The notes under the pieces are model-generated. The model had not been told where the DNA came from and did no database searches. It saw only the letters and a list, made by a program, of their open reading frames with translations. From IMG/VR virus record IMGVR_UViG_3300042308_001333, positions 1-30,624 of that record: a stretch of 30,624 nt of DNA; one strand, 5' to 3'. This DNA is from a virus. Below are positions 2,744 through 15,621 of the stretch, piece by piece (the first letter of the stretch is position 1; each line of letters starts with the position of its first letter). A program made the position numbers and the translations under genes.

Positions 2744-3316
2744 CTACGCCACCTCGAAGGATGCGGCCCCGGTGCAGACGGCCGTCAGGATGGCGCTGCC
2801 CGTGGCGATGGTGAGGTTGGAGCCGGCGCCGTTGATCGTCTCGCTGCCGGCACGGGCGAGGGTGAGGTTGTTCCCCGAGCGGTTGCGCAGGCGGAACTGC
2901 CAGCCGATCCACACATCGGCCGCCGCCGGCAGCGTCCATGTGCGGGTGCCGGAGGTGCAGAGCAGGAGCTTCATGCCGTCGTGCTCCGTGATCTGGTAGG
3001 TGGCATCCTGCGCGTTGACGAGCAGCGCGGCGGCCATGTCCCACTGGCGGAACGCCTCGCCGTTCAGCGTGTGCATCCGCGGCAGGTCCATCGGCTCGTT
3101 GCCGACGCCGTTGGCGGCGATGCCCAGGGCAACCTGCAGGGCGTAGTTGGCGGCGGCGGCTTCCTGGTAGGCCTGGCACTGCACCGCCAGCGCCGCCACG
3201 TCGATGCCCGTCTGGCCGACCGCGTTGAACGCCGGAACGAGGTAGGTGCGATGCCCGCCGTTCTCGAACTGGCTCGTGGCCAGCCCGGCGAGGTAGGCCC
3301 AATCAGCGCTGCTCAC
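2744..3316 (-). CDS. Putative tail-tip / fibre-associated protein (190 aa)
   Basis: The start is GTG at 3316, overlapping the upstream stop (GTGA), with GGAGG about 8 bases upstream. The N-terminal half (residues 1-90) is helical and Ala/Gln-rich. The C-terminal half (about 100-190) is a beta-rich segment with repeated aromatic-Thr-Leu patterns (TRTWTLPAAADVWIGWQFRLRN) resembling the small beta domains attached to phage fibres. The next gene, a fibre-like protein, starts one base after its stop, so the two are likely translated together. Function is inferred from position only: a connector or accessory of the tail fibre. Confidence 0.62.
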   Translation of the reverse strand: MSSADWAYLAGLATSQFENGGHRTYLVPAFNAVGQTGIDVAALAVQCQAYQEAAAANYALQVALGIAANGVGNEPMDLPRMHTLNGEAFRQWDMAAALLVNAQDATYQITEHDGMKLLLCTSGTRTWTLPAAADVWIGWQFRLRNRSGNNLTLARAGSETINGAGSNLTIATGSAILTAVCTGAASFEVA

Positions 3317-4167
3317 AGGATTTCCTCCAACTCATAAGAGACCTCGTGCAAGTTACGGAAGGCCTGGGTGATCGGGTCCACGCGGCGGCTGTGGGCCAGA
3401 AAGTTCCGCTTGAACGCGCGGGCCGTATCGGCGGGGTCTGGGCGGACCCACAATTGCCCCGCCGTGCCGAGCCTGCGTTGCGCGTCCAGAACCGCGCCGA
3501 GGGCTTCGGTGGTGGTCAATGCCTTGAGGGTGAAACGCAGCACGCGGGCGGGGTCGCGGCGGTCATGGAACAGCACGCCGCCAAGGCTTTGCTCGCTTAC
3601 GTCGCGCGCTTCCCAGCCGAACGCCGCGCCATAGGCAAAGCTGCGCAGGGGTTCCCATATCGGGCCCATCCAAAGCCGGGCGAGTTCCACATACCCATCC
3701 GGGTTAGTGGTGTCGGTGAAGGCGAGCGTCCAGTATCGAGCGCGGACGTTTTCGCCGCAGTCGTGCTCCAGGCTGATCGGATAGCCCTCGGTTTCGCTGG
3801 CGGCGATCTGGCCGGTCCAGAAATTGTCGTCCTCCCACTCCAGTTCTTGCGGGAGGTAGACGGCGGGCCACACATCTAGCGTGCCGCTGTCGTAAACGTC
3901 GCTGGCGCCCGCCGTGGTGCCGGCGGTGATGCGGTAGGTGGCATCCGTGCTGAGGTTGTGGCGCGCGATGGCAAGCAGGCGCACGATGGTGGTGGTGTTG
4001 CCGAGATCCACGCGGAACTGCGTGCTCGCCGCGTCGTCGTTCGTGCTGCGGGCGCGGAGGGAGAGGAATTCCTGTTGCAGATTGGCCAGCGGGGCGCCGG
4101 CTTGCCAGGAGCCGGCGGAAAGGGTGGCGGCGTCGGCGCGGTTGTAGAAGGAGAATTGGATTGGCAC
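3313..4167 (-). CDS. Putative minor tail / distal tail protein (284 aa)
   Basis: The start is GTG at 4167, five bases past the stop of the upstream tail protein. The sequence is beta-rich, with a discoidin-like N-terminal part (about residues 1-150: STQFRVDLGNTTTIVRLLAIARHNLS, DSGTLDVWP, ARYWTLAFTDTTNPDGYVELARLWMG read in pieces). Such a part fits a galactose-binding-like sandwich on a tail tip. The C-terminal part (about 190-284) contains RDPARVLRFTLKALT and ends in charged helices. Its position between a tail-tip protein and the fibre genes supports a baseplate or tail-tip role. I could not name a specific family. Confidence 0.62.
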   Translation of the reverse strand: MPIQFSFYNRADAATLSAGSWQAGAPLANLQQEFLSLRARSTNDDAASTQFRVDLGNTTTIVRLLAIARHNLSTDATYRITAGTTAGASDVYDSGTLDVWPAVYLPQELEWEDDNFWTGQIAASETEGYPISLEHDCGENVRARYWTLAFTDTTNPDGYVELARLWMGPIWEPLRSFAYGAAFGWEARDVSEQSLGGVLFHDRRDPARVLRFTLKALTTTEALGAVLDAQRRLGTAGQLWVRPDPADTARAFKRNFLAHSRRVDPITQAFRNLHEVSYELEEIL

Positions 4168-10782: not shown

Positions 10783-11163
10783 ATGCGGGCAGGCGTTGTT
10801 GTGGTGGTGGCGCTGTTGGCAGGGTGCGCCACAGCGGTTTTGCAATCGGATGATCCGCGGCGCGCGGTAGTGCTGGCGCCTTATCTCCGCGTAATCCCAC
10901 CCTTCGGGCAGGTTCACATACCGGAAGGGACAGTTTTGTATCCGGCCACCGTGGATGGGCAGCCGTCTTGGTGCTCCACTGCGCCGGTCTATTTTGTGCC
11001 TGGTGAGGCCCGCCCGCTATGCTTGTTTGATCCGAGCGGCGGAAGCCAGACCGAGGGATGGTTCAAGACTGCGTATGTCGCCGGTTCATTGGCAAGCTTA
11101 CGGTATGATGTCGATGTCCCATATCGAGTGGGACAGCGGCCGGCGCTGCCTCCTCGGCAATAA
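10783..11163 (+). CDS. Putative lipoprotein (126 aa), plus-strand, unknown function
   Basis: This is the only intact plus-strand gene I support. GGGGAGG precedes the ATG at about 5-8 bases. The N-terminus (MRAGVVVVVALLAGC) is a signal peptide with the lipobox LLAGC, so Cys15 would be lipidated and the mature protein anchored in a membrane. The mature part has four further Cys/Trp-containing beta-like stretches (WCSTAPVYFVPGE, RPLCLFDPSGG) and no known domain that I recognise. It is convergent with the cassette and array at its right. Membrane-anchored phage lipoproteins often change the host surface or block superinfection (family knowledge for such genes generally); that role is only a hypothesis here. 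Its promoter must lie in the short gap 10717-10775, where I see no clear -35/-10 pair. Confidence 0.72.
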   Translation: MRAGVVVVVALLAGCATAVLQSDDPRRAVVLAPYLRVIPPFGQVHIPEGTVLYPATVDGQPSWCSTAPVYFVPGEARPLCLFDPSGGSQTEGWFKTAYVAGSLASLRYDVDVPYRVGQRPALPPRQ

Positions 11164-11185
11164 GGGCGGCGCTTCGGCGCCGCCC
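11164..11185. terminator. Perfect 9-bp hairpin with TTCG loop
   Basis: The stem GGGCGGCGC pairs with GCGCCGCCC around a TTCG loop on the plus strand (CGAA on the minus strand). It follows the plus-strand lipoprotein stop at 11161-11163 directly. It also lies at the far end of the minus-strand pentamer array, where TTATTG follows on the minus strand. There is no long T-run on either strand, so it may be a bidirectional terminator, a transcript-end stabiliser, or a structural element of the array RNA. Confidence 0.7.
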
Positions 11186-11193
11186 TGCTAACT

Positions 11194-11374
11194 TAGCCTG
11201 CCGTGCCCGGCCCAGCCTAGCCGAGCCATGCCCAACCTGGCCTCGCCATGCCTGCCAGACCACGCCTGGCCTCGCCGAGCCGTGCCCCGCCCCGCCATGC
11301 CTCACCTTGCCTGCCACGCCTCGCCTTGCCTAGCCAAGCCGTGCCTAGCCTCGCCATGCCTGCCCTGCCATGTC
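11194..11374 (-). repeat. Degenerate GGC-NN pentamer array (37 units, 181 bp)
   Basis: On the minus strand the sequence is a head-to-tail run of pentamers GGCNN, in which the last two bases vary freely. I count 33 pentamers and 4 tetramers (GGCA), exactly filling 11194-11374. Three pentamers begin GGT and the first unit is GACAT; all others begin GGC. The tetramers divide the array into blocks of 9, 11 and 10 pentamers. The array starts 7 bases after the stop codon of the 155-residue gene of the three-gene cassette, in the same transcription direction, so it would form its 3' untranslated RNA. It ends shortly before the UUCG hairpin. No coding role is likely because five-base periodicity shifts frame continually. 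Tracts of this general type occur in other phage genomes in my memory; their function is, to my knowledge, not established. Confidence 0.9.
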
Positions 11375-11381
11375 CTTGCAA

Positions 11382-11849
11382 TCAGCGGCGGGCTGCCGCG
11401 ATCGCCTCCGTCACCGCCGAGAATTCGGCGAACTCGCCGTACTTCGACAGCCACACTTCCAGATCGGTCCAGCCTTGCCGGATGACCTGACCGCGTAGTT
11501 CCTTCTCGCCCAACACGACATGCCGGGCTTCGTATCCAAGGCCCACATCCGGCCTTTCGACCGAGACGAAGGCTCGCTTCGGCTCCGACACGCCGCGAGG
11601 TGCGACCTTCACCACGATGGCGCCGACGAGTTGCCGCGCCTGCGCTTCCCGGTGCCGTTCCGCCGCGATGCTGTCGTCCCACTCGAAGGCGCGGTGCAGC
11701 ACCGAGGTATCCGGCCGGGCTGCATCCACCACCATGGCCGGGGTGAGGGAGCCGTTGGCACGTTGCCGCAGCAGTTCGATAGTCTCGCCGGCCTGCTGGG
11801 CGTTGATGCAAAACCGGGCACCAGACTTGAACTCGTAACGGAAGCTCAT
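11382..11849 (-). CDS. Conserved phage protein, third gene of array cassette (155 aa)
   Basis: ATG at 11849 overlaps the stop of the 198-residue gene (ATGA). Residues about 1-50 form a small region with RANGSLTPAMVVDAARPD, then VLHRAFEWDDSIAAERHREA (about 50-70), a pattern I recall from widespread uncharacterised phage proteins (LTP..VVD.A, FEWDD..AAE). The middle (about 72-120) has beta-like strands (LVGAIVVKVAPRGVSE, RAFVSVERPDVG) and the C-terminus is helical (WLSKYGEFAEFSAVTEAIAAARR). No catalytic motif is recognised. It always seems to travel with a partner like the 198-residue protein in remembered phage loci, so the two may form a complex. The pentamer array starts 7 bases after its stop codon. 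Confidence 0.75.
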   Translation of the reverse strand: MSFRYEFKSGARFCINAQQAGETIELLRQRANGSLTPAMVVDAARPDTSVLHRAFEWDDSIAAERHREAQARQLVGAIVVKVAPRGVSEPKRAFVSVERPDVGLGYEARHVVLGEKELRGQVIRQGWTDLEVWLSKYGEFAEFSAVTEAIAAARR

Positions 11850-12442
11850 GCGCCCTCGCCCTCCGTGGCGACATGGAACATGCCGTAGCTGCCGTCGCGC
11901 TCCGGCCGCCACTCCCCGACGCCAACACCGAAGCCGGCGCTGTTGAACAGGTGCACGATCTGCTCGGCGGAGAGCGCCCCGGCGTTGAACCGGATGGAGA
12001 GGTCCACCGACCATTCGGTGAATTGGCCGCGGTGACGAATGTCCGCGCCGCCCATGGCGATCTTGACCATGTCCTCCCGCGGCGAGGGCGTGCCGTTGAT
12101 GCGGGCCAACTCGCCGGGGATGTGGAAGGCGCCACGCGCTTCCGTCATTCTCAGGCCATCCACGAAGCGGCAGGCGGACACGGCCGCCGCCTTGAATGCG
12201 ACGGTGGGAAAGCCGTAGCCGCGGCCGTCCGGCATCGGGTAGAGCGAGGCCTCGTAGTCGGCTTGCGGGTCCTTCGCCTCCCTCGCCGCCTTGGCCCGTT
12301 TCATCTGCTTGTCCAGCATCTGCTTCTTCGCCTTCTCGCTCCAGGCGTGGCAGATCAGCGGGCTGTCACCAACGAGACGCAGGCCCATCACGCGAAGGTC
12401 AAGGGGCGGCAGCTGGATTGCCTGGGTGGGTGACTTGCTCAT
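11846..12442 (-). CDS. Conserved phage protein, possible RAMP/Cas7-like RRM fold (198 aa)
   Basis: ATG at 12442 shares a base with the upstream stop (TGATG). The protein starts with an acidic-hydrophobic strand and DSPLICHAWSEKAKKQML (about 28-45). It then has a Lys/Arg-rich helix, GFPTVAFKAAAVSACR (about 77-92), HIPGELARI, REDMVKIAMGGADIRHRG, a strand pair WSVDLSIRFNAG (about 145-157), and a C-terminal glycine-rich segment AGFGVGVGEWRPERDGSYGMF (read in pieces, about 169-189). The order of an early P-L strand, a 'pG/P..aFKaA' helix and a late glycine-rich loop before a final strand resembles the layout of RAMP proteins such as Cas7/Csf2. This is pattern reasoning, not a search. If correct, it would be a nucleic-acid-binding, possibly filament-forming protein. 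An annealing or recombination protein is the main alternative. Confidence 0.7.
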   Translation of the reverse strand: MSKSPTQAIQLPPLDLRVMGLRLVGDSPLICHAWSEKAKKQMLDKQMKRAKAAREAKDPQADYEASLYPMPDGRGYGFPTVAFKAAAVSACRFVDGLRMTEARGAFHIPGELARINGTPSPREDMVKIAMGGADIRHRGQFTEWSVDLSIRFNAGALSAEQIVHLFNSAGFGVGVGEWRPERDGSYGMFHVATEGEGA

Positions 12443-12711
12443 CACACCACCTCCTGCGCAGCGGCGATCCGGTTGAGGTCGCCCAGGATGCCGCGCGCAA
12501 GCCGGGCATCCGTGGATGGCGCATGACGATGCCATGGCATACCCATGATGCTGTCCAGGCTCTCCTCGTCCGTGGCGTCAATCTGCCCATAGGTCCAGCG
12601 CAGCGCCCGGACTTTCACCAGTATGCCTTCCATCGTCACAGGCGCGTGTTTCTCGATTTGCCGAACCACGGCGCTGGTTCGGTCCATGGCGGCGCTGGCG
12701 GCCTCGGACAT
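12442..12711 (-). CDS. Hypothetical protein, first gene of array cassette (89 aa)
   Basis: ATG at 12711 begins MSEAASAAMDRTSAVV. Residues 1-30 are helical and acidic. The middle has APVTMEGILVKVRALRW (about 28-44), and the C-terminal part (about 65-89) is a helix with DARLARGILGDLNRIA. The last base of its stop is shared with the start of the next gene (TGATG), so the cassette is co-translated. It is rich in small and charged residues with no domain I know. The 110 bases upstream hold a plus-strand gene remnant and no clear promoter, so transcription may come from the late operon to the right. Confidence 0.65.
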   Translation of the reverse strand: MSEAASAAMDRTSAVVRQIEKHAPVTMEGILVKVRALRWTYGQIDATDEESLDSIMGMPWHRHAPSTDARLARGILGDLNRIAAAQEVV

Positions 12712-12722
12712 CGCGTCGTCGC

Positions 12723-12824
12723 GCGTGGCGTCGGCTGCAACCCGACATCCCCACCCGCGCCGAAGCCATCCGCCGCTTGATCGAACTCGGCCTGGAAGCC
12801 TCCAAGGCAAAGCCCACGTCCTAG
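12723..12824 (+). pseudogene. 3' remnant of a ribbon-helix-helix (CopG/Arc-like) gene
   Basis: On the plus strand 33 codons before TAG at 12822-12824 read as the C-terminus of a ribbon-helix-helix protein: RRLQPDIPTRAEAIRRL followed by IELGLEAS. 'TRAEAIRRLIELGL' is the classic helix pair of such DNA-binding proteins, whose genes usually give a beta strand upstream. The frame upstream of 12723 turns into low-quality Arg/Trp-rich sequence with no such strand or start, so the 5' part is missing. The stop overlaps the stop of the minus-strand DUF6441-like gene. It marks a recombination junction at the border of the island. Confidence 0.65.
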
Positions 12825-13567
12825 CGCCCGCTCGCCAACTCCCGCACCGCAGCGGCGGCGAACCAACCCGGCGCCTGTGCGCGCACCTGATCGACGTTGA
12901 GCCGCTTTCGCAGGCTGACCTGCCGGGCCAGGAAGAACATCGGCACAAAGCCCTTGGCCAGGATCTCCCGGCGGCGCTGTGCGGCGCCCTTGCCGCGCGC
13001 GGTGCCGATTTCCGTCGCGGTGCCCACAAACAGCCGCAGCCGGTTGCGGGTGCGCTTCGTCACGCCATAGGCCCCGGCCACGCGCAGGCACCAAAGGCGC
13101 AGGCGGGGGTTGGATTTGCTGGGGATGATGAACGCCTCCCCGCGCTTGCCGGCGGCGATCATCTGTTGCGGGGTGATGCGAAGGCCACCGCGCCGGCCGG
13201 CGCCGCGGCGGCCACCGACGGCGTTGTAGCCGGTGGGGAAGGCCAGATACTTGCCGCCCTTGGCCGTGATCGTGGCGCCCTGGTCGAACGCCGTCACCAC
13301 ATCAGGCATTCGGCTATACACCAGCGCGGCAGGCTTCAGCGTGCGCGGAGCACGGCCTGGCGGGGGATAGACGGCTAGGCGCCAGCTGTTCGCAACCGCT
13401 TTGCCGCCATCCCTGAAACCGGCAGCGCGGGCTTGGTTCCGCAGGGCGGCCTGGGTAAGCCGACCGGCGGTCGAAACTGCCCGGCGCATGCCGGCGGCCA
13501 CGCGCACCAGTTCCTGATCCAGCGCCTTGGAGAGATTGCCGGTGACGGTCGCCTTGAGGAGGGTCAT
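12821..13567 (-). CDS. DUF6441-like phage tail-associated protein (248 aa)
   Basis: ATG at 13567 shares a base with the stop of the tail-chaperone frame (TGATG). The N-terminus (LLKATVTGNLSKALDQELVRV) is an amphipathic helix. Residues 30-75 contain GRLTQAALRNQARAAGF and WRLAVYPPPG. Then comes GATITAKGGKYLAFPTGYNAVG (pieces; about 95-115), a basic Gly/Arg-rich stretch and a C-terminal helical part (KGFVPMFFLARQVSLRKRLN). This order matches proteins I know as DUF6441, found beside tail genes of alphaproteobacterial phages; structural or assembly role is assumed from position. The gene is uninterrupted and ends exactly where the plus-strand remnant ends. Confidence 0.68.
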   Translation of the reverse strand: MTLLKATVTGNLSKALDQELVRVAAGMRRAVSTAGRLTQAALRNQARAAGFRDGGKAVANSWRLAVYPPPGRAPRTLKPAALVYSRMPDVVTAFDQGATITAKGGKYLAFPTGYNAVGGRRGAGRRGGLRITPQQMIAAGKRGEAFIIPSKSNPRLRLWCLRVAGAYGVTKRTRNRLRLFVGTATEIGTARGKGAAQRRREILAKGFVPMFFLARQVSLRKRLNVDQVRAQAPGWFAAAAVRELASGR

Positions 13568-14432
13568 CAGCGCACCTGTCGTTCGGTTTCCCGCCATCCG
13601 GCGTCGATGCCCGCCAGCGTGGCGAACGCATCCACAATCCAGGCCGCCTGGTCGTTGAGGCTGCCACCGTCCGGCCAATGGGCCACCCCTGCCTCGCCGC
13701 GGCACGCCGCCCAGAGGCGGACGAAATCGTGCCAGGGGCGCGGCACGGCCAACCGGGGGTTGTCGCCCTTCCAGGGCTCGGCCGCGGCCCCGGCGGGCAC
13801 CAGCCAATCAGACCCATCAAAGGGCCTCAGCCCTCCTGCGTAGGCGCCGGGCTCTCGGGCGACGGCGAGGGCGCCTCGGAGTTTCCCGCCGCGTCCGGGC
13901 CGAGCCAGATCAGCACCTGCGCACGCGTGGCCAGGGCCTCCAGTTCGGCCGCCGGAATGGCGTCCAGTAGTTCCGCCGGAACGCGGCTGTCGCGCCCGCG
14001 CACCAGGGGCGGCAGGCCGGGCCCGGACCATTCACGCAGGGCGAATTGGAGCGTGATGAACGGGCTCATCTCGTTGTAGCGCAGACGGGCTTCCAGCAAC
14101 TCGGCATAGGCGGGCTCCTGCCGCGCCACGCGCTCCAGCACCGCCAGCCGCGCCTGTGCGGCCTTGTCGTCTGGCGCCGCCTCGGCTGCGTCCACCGCAG
14201 CCAGGGCTTCGTGCAGGTTGGCCGGCGCCAGTTCCTCCAGGACCTGCCGCAGCACGCCGAACATGACGGCCTGGTCCGGGGGATCGCCGCCCTCCGCACG
14301 GATCTGCCGCCGCATCGCGTTCCGCTCCCGGTAGCTGAGCGGGCTCAGCACGTAGGAGCGAGGCGACTTCGGCGGCGTGTACGTGAGCGTATCCTGCACC
14401 GAGAATACGGGTTCGGAAGGGGCGATGTCCAA
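13567..14432 (-). CDS. Tail assembly chaperone fusion GT, by -1 frameshift (288 aa)
   Basis: The downstream T-like frame (about 104 codons from 13881 to 13567) is open back past the G stop codon and has no good start of its own. It is reached by a -1 frameshift on GGGAAAC inside the G gene. The fusion is 184 residues of G plus 104 residues of T. The T part includes DGSDWLVPAG, NPRLAVPRPWHDFVRLW and WPDGGSLNDQAAWIVDAF, all well-formed protein sequence. In lambda-like phages, G and GT chaperones bind the tape measure and tube protein during tail assembly (established for lambda G and GT). An alternative, a separate protein starting at an internal GTG, has no ribosome binding site in good register. 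Confidence 0.82.
13827..14432 (-). CDS. Tail assembly chaperone G (201 aa)
   Basis: The start is a TTG at 14432, placed 6-7 bases after GGAGG; no ATG with a ribosome binding site fits better. The upstream stop is 13 bases before it. The product begins MDIAPSEPVFSVQDTLTYTP and contains a helical middle with LSYRERNAMRRQIRAEGGD, DKAAQARLAVLERVARQ and NEMSPFITLQFALREWSG. It ends in a Pro/Ser-rich tail after the slippery site. Position between the tail tube gene and the tape measure region, plus the frameshift structure, identifies it as the G-like chaperone rather than a sequence match to lambda G. Confidence 0.8.
   Translation of the reverse strand: MDIAPSEPVFSVQDTLTYTPPKSPRSYVLSPLSYRERNAMRRQIRAEGGDPPDQAVMFGVLRQVLEELAPANLHEALAAVDAAEAAPDDKAAQARLAVLERVARQEPAYAELLEARLRYNEMSPFITLQFALREWSGPGLPPLVRGRDSRVPAELLDAIPAAELEALATRAQVLIWLGPDAAGNSEAPSPSPESPAPTQEG
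13881..13887 (-). promoter_or_regulatory. Programmed -1 frameshift slippery site GGGAAAC
   Basis: On the minus strand the heptamer G GGA AAC is in frame in the G gene (codons GGA, AAC). It fits the canonical X-XXY-YYZ pattern and closely resembles lambda's GGGAAAG in G/GT. After slipping back one base, the ribosome reads CTC CGA GGC and continues into the T frame without a stop to 13567. Confidence 0.88.
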
Positions 14433-14445
14433 GCAGGACCTCCGT

Positions 14446-15621
14446 TCAGAAGTGGCAGATCGAGAAACCAGCGTCGGCGCCGTCGGCGTCAAACTCGATG
14501 GCATGCGTGGCCAGGCCCTCGCGGTTGCGCGGATCGAAGGCCGTTGCCTTGGCGCTGGGCACGCAGAAGGCGAAGCGGTTGCCGGCGGTGCTGCCGATGA
14601 TGCCGGCCAGCGGCATGGCGGTGCCGGCCTTGAAGTTCGTCATCAGCCCGGCGGCGTAGGTGGTGTGTTGATAGGGGTCGAGGCTGCCGCCCATGGCGCG
14701 TTCCACCGGCACCGCGGCGCCGAAGCCCTCGCTGCTCTCGGGATCGTCGGGAAGGATGATGTTCACGCCGGTGTTGAGCTGCAGCGTCTTGATCTGGGCA
14801 AGGCGGCGATTGAACTGGCTCTGCCCCGCCACCCAGCGCGGCGGGACGATGGCGATGCGGGTGTTGGCGGCGGTGGCGGCGGCGCTGGGCAGCGAAGTCG
14901 CGGTCTTGGCGCCGTACTGGGCGCGCATCTCGAACGTCCAGTAGCCGATGCCGCCGGCTTCGAGCTGCAGCGAGGCGTTGCCCATGGCGCCGGTGAAGGT
15001 CCACAGCATGCCGTCGGCGTAGAAGTAGATGGTGAGGGTCTTGTACACGCTCTCATCGCTGGTCGGCGTGTAGAGCACGTTGATGGGGATCTGCAGCGTG
15101 CTGGAGGTCGTCATCGTGGTGCGGGTATCGGCCACGGTGATGACGCGACCGGCGGTGTAGTCGGTGATGACCGTGGTCCCGGGCGAAACCGCGGCGATGA
15201 TCAGCGGCATGCCGCGATACTGCTGCGCCGTGGTGCCGAAGGGGCTGGCCGCGGTCACGGTGGTGGTGGTGCCCGCCGTCGCCGCCGTGGGGGCGCCTAC
15301 GGCGCTGGCCGTGGTGGTTTCGGCAAAGGTGCAGGCCTGGAGGAACTTGCCCCACTCCGGGGCCGTGCCTGCCGTGCCGGAGCCACGCAGGGGCATGCGG
15401 ATGCGCAGGCGCGGGCGCAGGCCGCCGACCTGGCGGGCGGTGCGGTCGAGGCTGCCGTTGTATTCCGGGATGTCCAGAACCTGGGGATCGAACTGCACCT
15501 CGCAGTCGGCGCCGATCCAGTCGGTGGAGCCGACAGAGCCGCCGAAGATATCGGTGCCCACCGTGGTTTCGATCTTGGCCGCCAGCGCGGCGAACTTCAT
15601 GCGGACGAGATTGGTGGACAT
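14446..15621 (-). CDS. Major tail tube protein (391 aa)
   Basis: ATG at 15621 begins MSTNLVRMKFAALAAKIET. The protein is beta-rich with many Thr, Gly and Ala. An early domain (about 1-95) includes TDWIGADCEVQFDPQVLDIP and an Arg-rich stretch, a Thr/Ala-rich linker or Ig-like insertion lies at about 105-180, and a second beta domain (about 195-390) includes LTIYFYADGMLWTFTGAMGN and LEAGGIGYWTFEMRAQYG. The last motif is typical of phage tail tube proteins. Position between the tail-terminator-like gene and the G/GT chaperones supports this. The subunits would stack as hexameric rings around the tape measure. Exact family is not certain. Confidence 0.8.
   Translation of the reverse strand: MSTNLVRMKFAALAAKIETTVGTDIFGGSVGSTDWIGADCEVQFDPQVLDIPEYNGSLDRTARQVGGLRPRLRIRMPLRGSGTAGTAPEWGKFLQACTFAETTTASAVGAPTAATAGTTTTVTAASPFGTTAQQYRGMPLIIAAVSPGTTVITDYTAGRVITVADTRTTMTTSSTLQIPINVLYTPTSDESVYKTLTIYFYADGMLWTFTGAMGNASLQLEAGGIGYWTFEMRAQYGAKTATSLPSAAATAANTRIAIVPPRWVAGQSQFNRRLAQIKTLQLNTGVNIILPDDPESSEGFGAAVPVERAMGGSLDPYQHTTYAAGLMTNFKAGTAMPLAGIIGSTAGNRFAFCVPSAKATAFDPRNREGLATHAIEFDADGADAGFSICHF

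Follow-up and report, generated by a model that had tools for sequence, protein, structure and literature searches.

A phage-encoded VIPR system with a slip-divided GGY-NN array upstream of a tape measure gene

Layout of the locus

The window, by which we mean the whole stretch of DNA analyzed here, comprises the 30,624 nucleotides of IMGVR_UViG_3300042308_001333, a 30.6-kb IMG/VR virus record containing terminase, tail and tape measure genes. On its minus strand, the terminase gene is followed by portal-like and capsid-like genes and by tail genes including a DUF6441 gene, then by the unit described here (vipr, a candidate vap gene and a vrRNA array; Table 1), and finally by a tape measure gene of the TMP_3 family encoding 1678 aa; the portal-like and capsid-like calls come from gene order and from reading the sequence. 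Since the terminase is closest to those of Rhodobacter and Wolbachia phages, and the named hosts closest by Vipr are sphingomonads and Rhizobiales, the host of this phage is likely alphaproteobacterial. After the major tail protein gene, two minus-strand ORFs (13827–14504 and 13567–14031) overlap by about 205 nt, and this arrangement (13567–14504) is characteristic of frameshift-produced tail assembly chaperones.

Three minus-strand ORFs with overlapping starts, as recognized by a first-pass annotation made from the sequence alone, precede the array. The start of vipr overlaps the stop of the preceding 89-aa ORF, and the 155-aa ORF overlaps vipr by 4 nt. The three-gene unit proposed at that stage is instead reduced to two genes and an array, as the 89-aa gene does not recur with the system. 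Its product, considered as a third component, was ruled out because it has no homologue in the other fetched Vipr loci or in 50,697 phage records, and the gene probably lies outside the VIPR system. The gap before it contains a plus-strand fragment (12729–12824) reading IPTRAEAIRRLIELGLEASKAKPTS up to a stop, which resembles the end of a ribbon-helix-helix protein and is possibly the scar of an earlier insertion.

The 198-aa protein is Vipr, the ancestral RAMP of VIPR systems; such proteins are characterized by an RRM core and a G-loop. A profile built from 60 homologues matched PDB entry 36pp, 'SUSP1 Vipr protein', over nearly its full length (E=3.2e-22), and this was the one solved protein that the profile found; the single sequence alone reached E=1.1e-5. 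The family also aligned with the Vipr of Felixounavirus ESCO50, a relative of SUSP1 (hhalign 99.2%, E 5.9e-20). The AF2 model (pLDDT 93.7) gave Csm3/Cas7-family RAMPs as the top Foldseek matches (E 1.8e-6), so that the RAMP/Cas7-like character assigned at first sight is borne out by both the 36pp match and the fold. Members of the family share the conserved segment GFxVGVGEWRPE, in which the GVGEWRP motif is nearly invariant, and this segment corresponds to the glycine-rich loop that a RAMP should have. The protein falls into PHROG 4652, annotated as function unknown. Searches of Pfam, NCBIfam, PADLOC and Rfam returned nothing for vipr, the 155-aa gene or the array; in particular, the Vipr protein was assigned to none of the Pfam, NCBIfam or PADLOC families and matched no Cas family.

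VIPR is a CRISPR relative whose sole description located in our literature search is a preprint of April 2026 (PMC13142463), which distinguishes seven types and six vap families (vap1–6), and the locus is thus not the undescribed system that it had been taken for. Viprs bind vrRNAs of 9–16 GGY/NN repeats, recognize double-stranded DNA via NN pairs between which a single base, as a rule at the wobble position, is left unread, and repress competing phages, the mechanism having been tested experimentally in type II; VIPR has also been proposed as the ancestor of CRISPR (PMC13142463).

The 155-aa protein is a candidate vap (Vipr-accessory) product, placed by its position beside vipr. A homologue is present in 85 of 97 Vipr loci that were fetched by the Vipr protein alone, and a confident viral match was found which itself carries no named function. 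Its AF2 model is of high confidence (pLDDT 94.7), and the PDB offered no match with E below 1, the weak winged-helix look-alikes all having E>1. Compared with the neighbours of the type II-like vipr genes in ESCO50 and LESphi2, the family gave an hhalign probability of 0.1%.

Downstream of the array, a 9-bp G+C hairpin lies directly 3' of the stop codon of a plus-strand lipoprotein-like gene, and for this reason it probably serves both converging genes as a bidirectional transcription end. It does not appear in the output of the terminator scan because its T-run is short. The hairpin closing the array had been noticed before and is real, but its loop on the array strand is CGAA, the UUCG belonging to the plus strand. 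The lipoprotein-like gene itself, situated between this hairpin and the tape measure gene, opposes the late operon. The protein has no relatives in the phage records, and the gene looks like a moron.

Table 1. Positions of the features of the VIPR locus and its flanks within the window
Feature	Position	Strand	Remarks
89-aa ORF	12442–12711	-	No detectable relatives
vipr gene	11846–12442	-	198-aa Vipr (RAMP); G-loop motif GFGVGVGEWRPE
Candidate vap gene	11382–11849	-	155 aa; PHROG 15946 (function unknown)
vrRNA array	11193–11381	-	GGY-NN pentamers with four 4-nt slips; 36 GGY, of which 33 GGC
Slip GGCA|GGC	11358–11364	-	5' border of U1
Guide U1	11316–11360	-	9 NN: AT GA TA AC TT TA AA GA GT
Slip GGCA|GGC	11309–11315	-	U1/U2 boundary
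Guide U2	11257–11311	-	11 NN: AA GA AT GG GG AC TC GA CA GT CT; matches tape measure genes
Slip GGCA|GGC	11250–11256	-	U2/U3 boundary
Guide U3	11203–11252	-	10 NN: AT GA CA TG AT TC TA TG CG AC
Slip GGCA|GGC	11196–11202	-	3' border of U3
Hairpin	11164–11185	both	9 bp, G+C; loop TTCG on +, CGAA on -
Lipoprotein-like gene	10783–11163	+	126 aa; signal peptide with LLAGC
Own tape measure segment	10201–10233	-	KEVGATSDQVL, aa 173–183; U2 counterpart; mismatches 5/22

The array and its linkage to vipr

The array proceeds in steps of which 31 out of 35 measure exactly 5 nt and the other four exactly 4 nt. Its best 186 nt hold 25 GGC-to-GGC steps of 5 nt, compared with a maximum of six in the rest of the window and a maximum of six in 200 first-order Markov windows, which excludes chance as an explanation of the array. 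All four 4-nt steps have the sequence GGCA|GGC, and these slips cut the tract into three guides of 9, 11 and 10 NN pairs (U1, U2 and U3), within the published range. The tandem GGY/NN repeat RNA characteristic of VIPR is therefore represented in the window by three units beside vipr. The 37 GGC-NN units counted at first pass were right to within one or two, but the four slips dividing them had been overlooked.

Slip-to-slip distances in the relatives take values such as 44, 49, 54 and 59 nt, and equal 4 mod 5 in 204 of 264 cases; therefore, each inter-slip stretch amounts to whole pentamers plus one GGCA. Such stretches are read as single guides because target matches fill them and end at the slip borders, and the sequence comparisons support the view that GGCA|GGC slips delimit single guides. 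In six loci (L006, L007, L038, L105, L151 and L196), a common leader, (C)CGAAACNNGGCA|GGC, stands just before the first slip and could be a processing or start signal; a sphingomonad is included in this subgroup.

The association between the protein and the repeats is not confined to this locus. Retrieval by the Vipr protein alone gave 97 distinct loci with enough flank; of these, 90 carry a GGY-NN array near vipr on the same strand and none (0/97) on the opposite strand, while arrays were seen in none of 35 distant flanks of such loci. Conversely, when scanned for by the array alone, many contigs also encode Vipr, and a single IMG/VR scan yielded 507 Vipr-encoding stretches. The tie between protein and array postulated from the window alone thus holds among its homologues, of which those with tracts far outnumber those without. 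A protein reading the repeat RNA in five-base steps, as was also suspected, agrees with the published Viprs, in which the NN letters are read as a gapped guide (PMC13142463).

Guide matches and the one-base-skip code

By its codon prefixes, U2 spells [KN][DE][IM]GGTS[DE][HQ]VL. Its counterpart in the window's own tape measure gene agrees in 17 of 22 bases and 9 of 11 residues, in the sense orientation and in frame (z 7.2; 0/3000 shuffles). The best U2 match, 19/22, is with Enterobacter phage Mulvp2, at the homologous codons of its tape measure gene; this phage has an unrelated host. In all 21 tape measure sequences, the window's own included, U2 scores above the shuffled mean, and the own gene is outscored by one of the 20 others. 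Because of these matches (own 17/22, Mulvp2 19/22 and the consistent excess over shuffles), U2 is identified, at the level of sequence, as a guide to the tape measure gene. The searches of IMG/VR yielded nothing that U1, U2 or U3 would match exactly or nearly so, and gave no convincing target for U1 and U3; in 385 alphaproteobacterial genomes, no target of U2 with two or fewer mismatches was found.

Several candidate targets were discarded. The 48 exact 8-NN matches of U1, U2 (in two registers) and U3 in IMG/VR were attributed to chance by their extension, frame or family, and two perfect 18/18 matches of U1 fell in A+T-rich contigs outside the coding frame. Separately, U1 weakly resembles the first residues (IQFSFYNRA) of the tail-module gene at 3313–4167 on the minus strand (P 0.03, uncorrected).

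The recognition rule was examined across the window's clade, the slips being the sole definition of a guide. Of the 359 units in the initial set, three match vipr genes from outside their own system at codon positions 1–2, sense, in frame and with a skip of one base (21/24, 16/16 and 17/18), compared with 0.015 expected and none in 400 shuffles. When all 24 skip and frame classes are considered, these three fall in the predicted class, and the other 23 together contain one match. The carriers' own vipr genes match less well (18/24, 13/16 and 14/18, respectively). A new fetch of 80 Vipr loci, giving 97 new guides, replicated this pattern: guides of L300 and L333 match vipr genes at 23/24 and 21/22, whereas the carriers' own copies reach 17/24 and 15/22 (0/300 shuffles). 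L334 contributes two further guides, for which the matches lie in ParB-DNA methylase genes (19/20 and 20/22), and this locus has its own divergent ParB-methylase gene directly after its array. Over the whole local database at a threshold of 9, ten guides scored at skip 1, compared with 1, 1 and 3 at skips 0, 2 and 3, and two shuffled guides at skip 1; the best skip-3 match was the guide's own unmasked array. Thus, recognition with a one-base skip appears to hold in the window's clade, outside type II, and the skipped base in the clade matches is the codon wobble base.

Some tests were less informative. An early skip-rule test over all loci gave no excess; its guides had been cut ignoring the slips, and a later run used a still small database. 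The coherence of NN codon phase within units is low (z 0.4). At weak thresholds, the vipr test is unconvincing because the NN composition itself resembles codon positions 1–2, and only the high-score tail was used in comparison with shuffles. A guide of L038 had no match in an exact scan of IMG/VR. As a separate observation, the L238 guide at 4263 matches the vipr gene of L244 near its 3' end at 17/18 with a three-base skip, i.e., in the full pentamer register; this match may be chance or a trace of how guides originate.

Guides also tend to resemble genes of the loci that carry them. In 15 of 912 tests (456 guides in both orientations), a guide compared in the coding frame resembled an own-locus protein with z>5, as against 1 of 2736 shuffled tests and 5 of 912 and 2 of 912 in the wrong frames, so the wrong-frame controls are not empty. 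The list includes the tape measure gene (the window, L211 and, antisense, L326), a portal-like gene (L337), a repressor-like gene (L229) and the ParB-methylase gene (L334), the calls in L337 and L229 resting on a reading of the sequence. At the one-base skip, perfect matches between a guide and its own locus are absent from the clade. Of 27 positions at which a guide and the carrier's gene share Leu, Arg or Ser, 17 have the own codon in the alternative box, compared with 8.0 expected from the own codon usage (P 3.5e-5, a statistic devised after the matches had been seen); in the window, the positions recoded relative to U2 are Ser AGC and Leu TTG. Such box switches would be the sole synonymous changes visible to a wobble-blind code. 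We lean towards the view that the guides are aimed at kin versions of genes which the carrier also owns (tape measure, portal-like, ParB-methylase, repressor-like and vipr), and that the carrier escapes through changes at codon positions 1–2, in part by synonymous Leu/Arg/Ser box switching.

Proposed function and relation to known systems

The window system belongs to VIPR, and is an instance of a system already described rather than of a new kind. VIPR systems reside mainly in phages and prophages, and the window, an IMG/VR virus record with phage structural genes, conforms to this setting. With high confidence, we interpret vipr, the candidate vap and the vrRNA array, forming one minus-strand unit in the tail module, as a phage VIPR system whose most likely role is to repress rival kin phages, its own allele being spared by mismatches. 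By analogy with published VIPR (PMC13142463), the array would be transcribed with or after the two genes, and Vipr subunits would cover each vrRNA stepwise, five nucleotides at a time, gripping the GGY and leaving the NN exposed. The resulting ribonucleoprotein would bind double-stranded DNA by matching successive NN pairs while skipping one base, and would repress the target without cutting it (PMC13142463). The present analysis suggests in addition that the targets may be rival relatives, and that the carrier's own allele may escape by mismatches, some of which are synonymous Leu/Arg/Ser recodings.

An alternative is that U2 represses the phage's own tape measure gene just downstream and thereby times late expression. 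The adjacency of the gene and its rank, second to one of 20 other tape measure sequences, would suit such self-regulation; nevertheless, we consider it improbable, since 5 of 22 positions are mismatched, the own gene encodes two of the amino acids from the alternative synonymous box, U2 fits the Mulvp2 gene better, guides throughout the clade lack a perfect match to their own locus, and other guides match rival vipr genes while avoiding their own. Still less probable is the earlier idea of a protein that covers or packs RNA or DNA of short repeat period, in which the NN letters are irrelevant. The RAMP fold and the fixed five-base period are as this idea would have them, but the NN strings correspond to stretches of phage genes much more closely than shuffled ones do; therefore, the order of the NN carries information, namely on the target, and the repeat RNA is more than a coated polymer. 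Finally, a functionless, degenerate low-complexity repeat downstream of ordinary genes, in keeping with a G+C-rich genome and with how common such arrays are among the viral-contig matches listed, is refuted by the strand-specific linkage to vipr (90/97 vs. 0/97) and the target matches, and is also at odds with the constant slip spacing of 4 mod 5 and the coding content of the NN.

VIPR type II, known from Escherichia phage SUSP1 and its Felixounavirus relatives (PMC13142463, 36pp), has a homologous Vipr (E 3e-22) and shares with the window GGY/NN vrRNA, a phage-encoded setting, two small genes and, as the guide matches suggest, one-base-skip recognition. The window system differs from type II of SUSP1 and P. 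fulva in that its candidate vap family shows no similarity by hhalign, and no vap1 homologue was found in it. In addition, the SUSP1 vrRNAs are separate transcripts with a structured, invariant 3' tail, whereas in the window each guide runs directly into the next, with no more than GGCA|GGC in between. Because of the dissimilar candidate vap and the absence of vrRNA tails, the window system is not type II. Some VIPR types are mentioned to have 'staggered arrays with overlapping vrRNAs' (PMC13142463, fig. S18); the contiguous, register-shifted array of the window would fit this wording, and its clade may be one of these types.

Class 1 CRISPR-Cas systems offer a more distant comparison. The window Vipr shares with Cas7/Csm3 the RAMP fold and the glycine-rich loop and, by analogy, would coat guide RNA stepwise. 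It differs in having no CRISPR repeats and no cas1/cas2, and in its phage-encoded, gapped-dinucleotide guide; searches with the protein gave no Cas match in Pfam, NCBIfam or PADLOC, and the window lacks long direct repeats interrupted by spacers.

From the window one arrives at a large second VIPR lineage, comprising the Vipr-encoding stretches counted above, whose guides can be read by eye from the GGCA|GGC slips. The clade matches independently support, at the level of sequence, a one-base skip beyond type II, and name targets, i.e., tape measure, vipr and ParB-methylase genes. They also point to a self/non-self mechanism based on synonymous recoding at Leu, Arg and Ser.

Named relatives of the window system occur in Mycobacterium phages (the Quico group), Gordonia phages (Ecliptus and UmaThurman) and Cyanophage Cy-LDV1, with Viprs 29–43% identical to that of the window. 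All have a homologue of the 155-aa candidate vap and GGY/NN arrays with GGCA|GGC slips adjoining the genes. Their arrays precede the genes or are placed between them, and in Cy-LDV1 follow them as well, whereas the window array follows the genes. Most of these systems are found near integrase, excisionase or repressor genes, and among them only Ecliptus has, like the window, its array before the tape measure gene; according to Pfam, a tape measure gene is located downstream of the vipr system in L275, L285, L294, L297 and L211 as well. A different array layout from that of the window's clade is seen in L119 (977–1567, minus strand), where GGY-NN blocks of about 9–10 units are repeated every 52–57 nt or so with constant short gaps.
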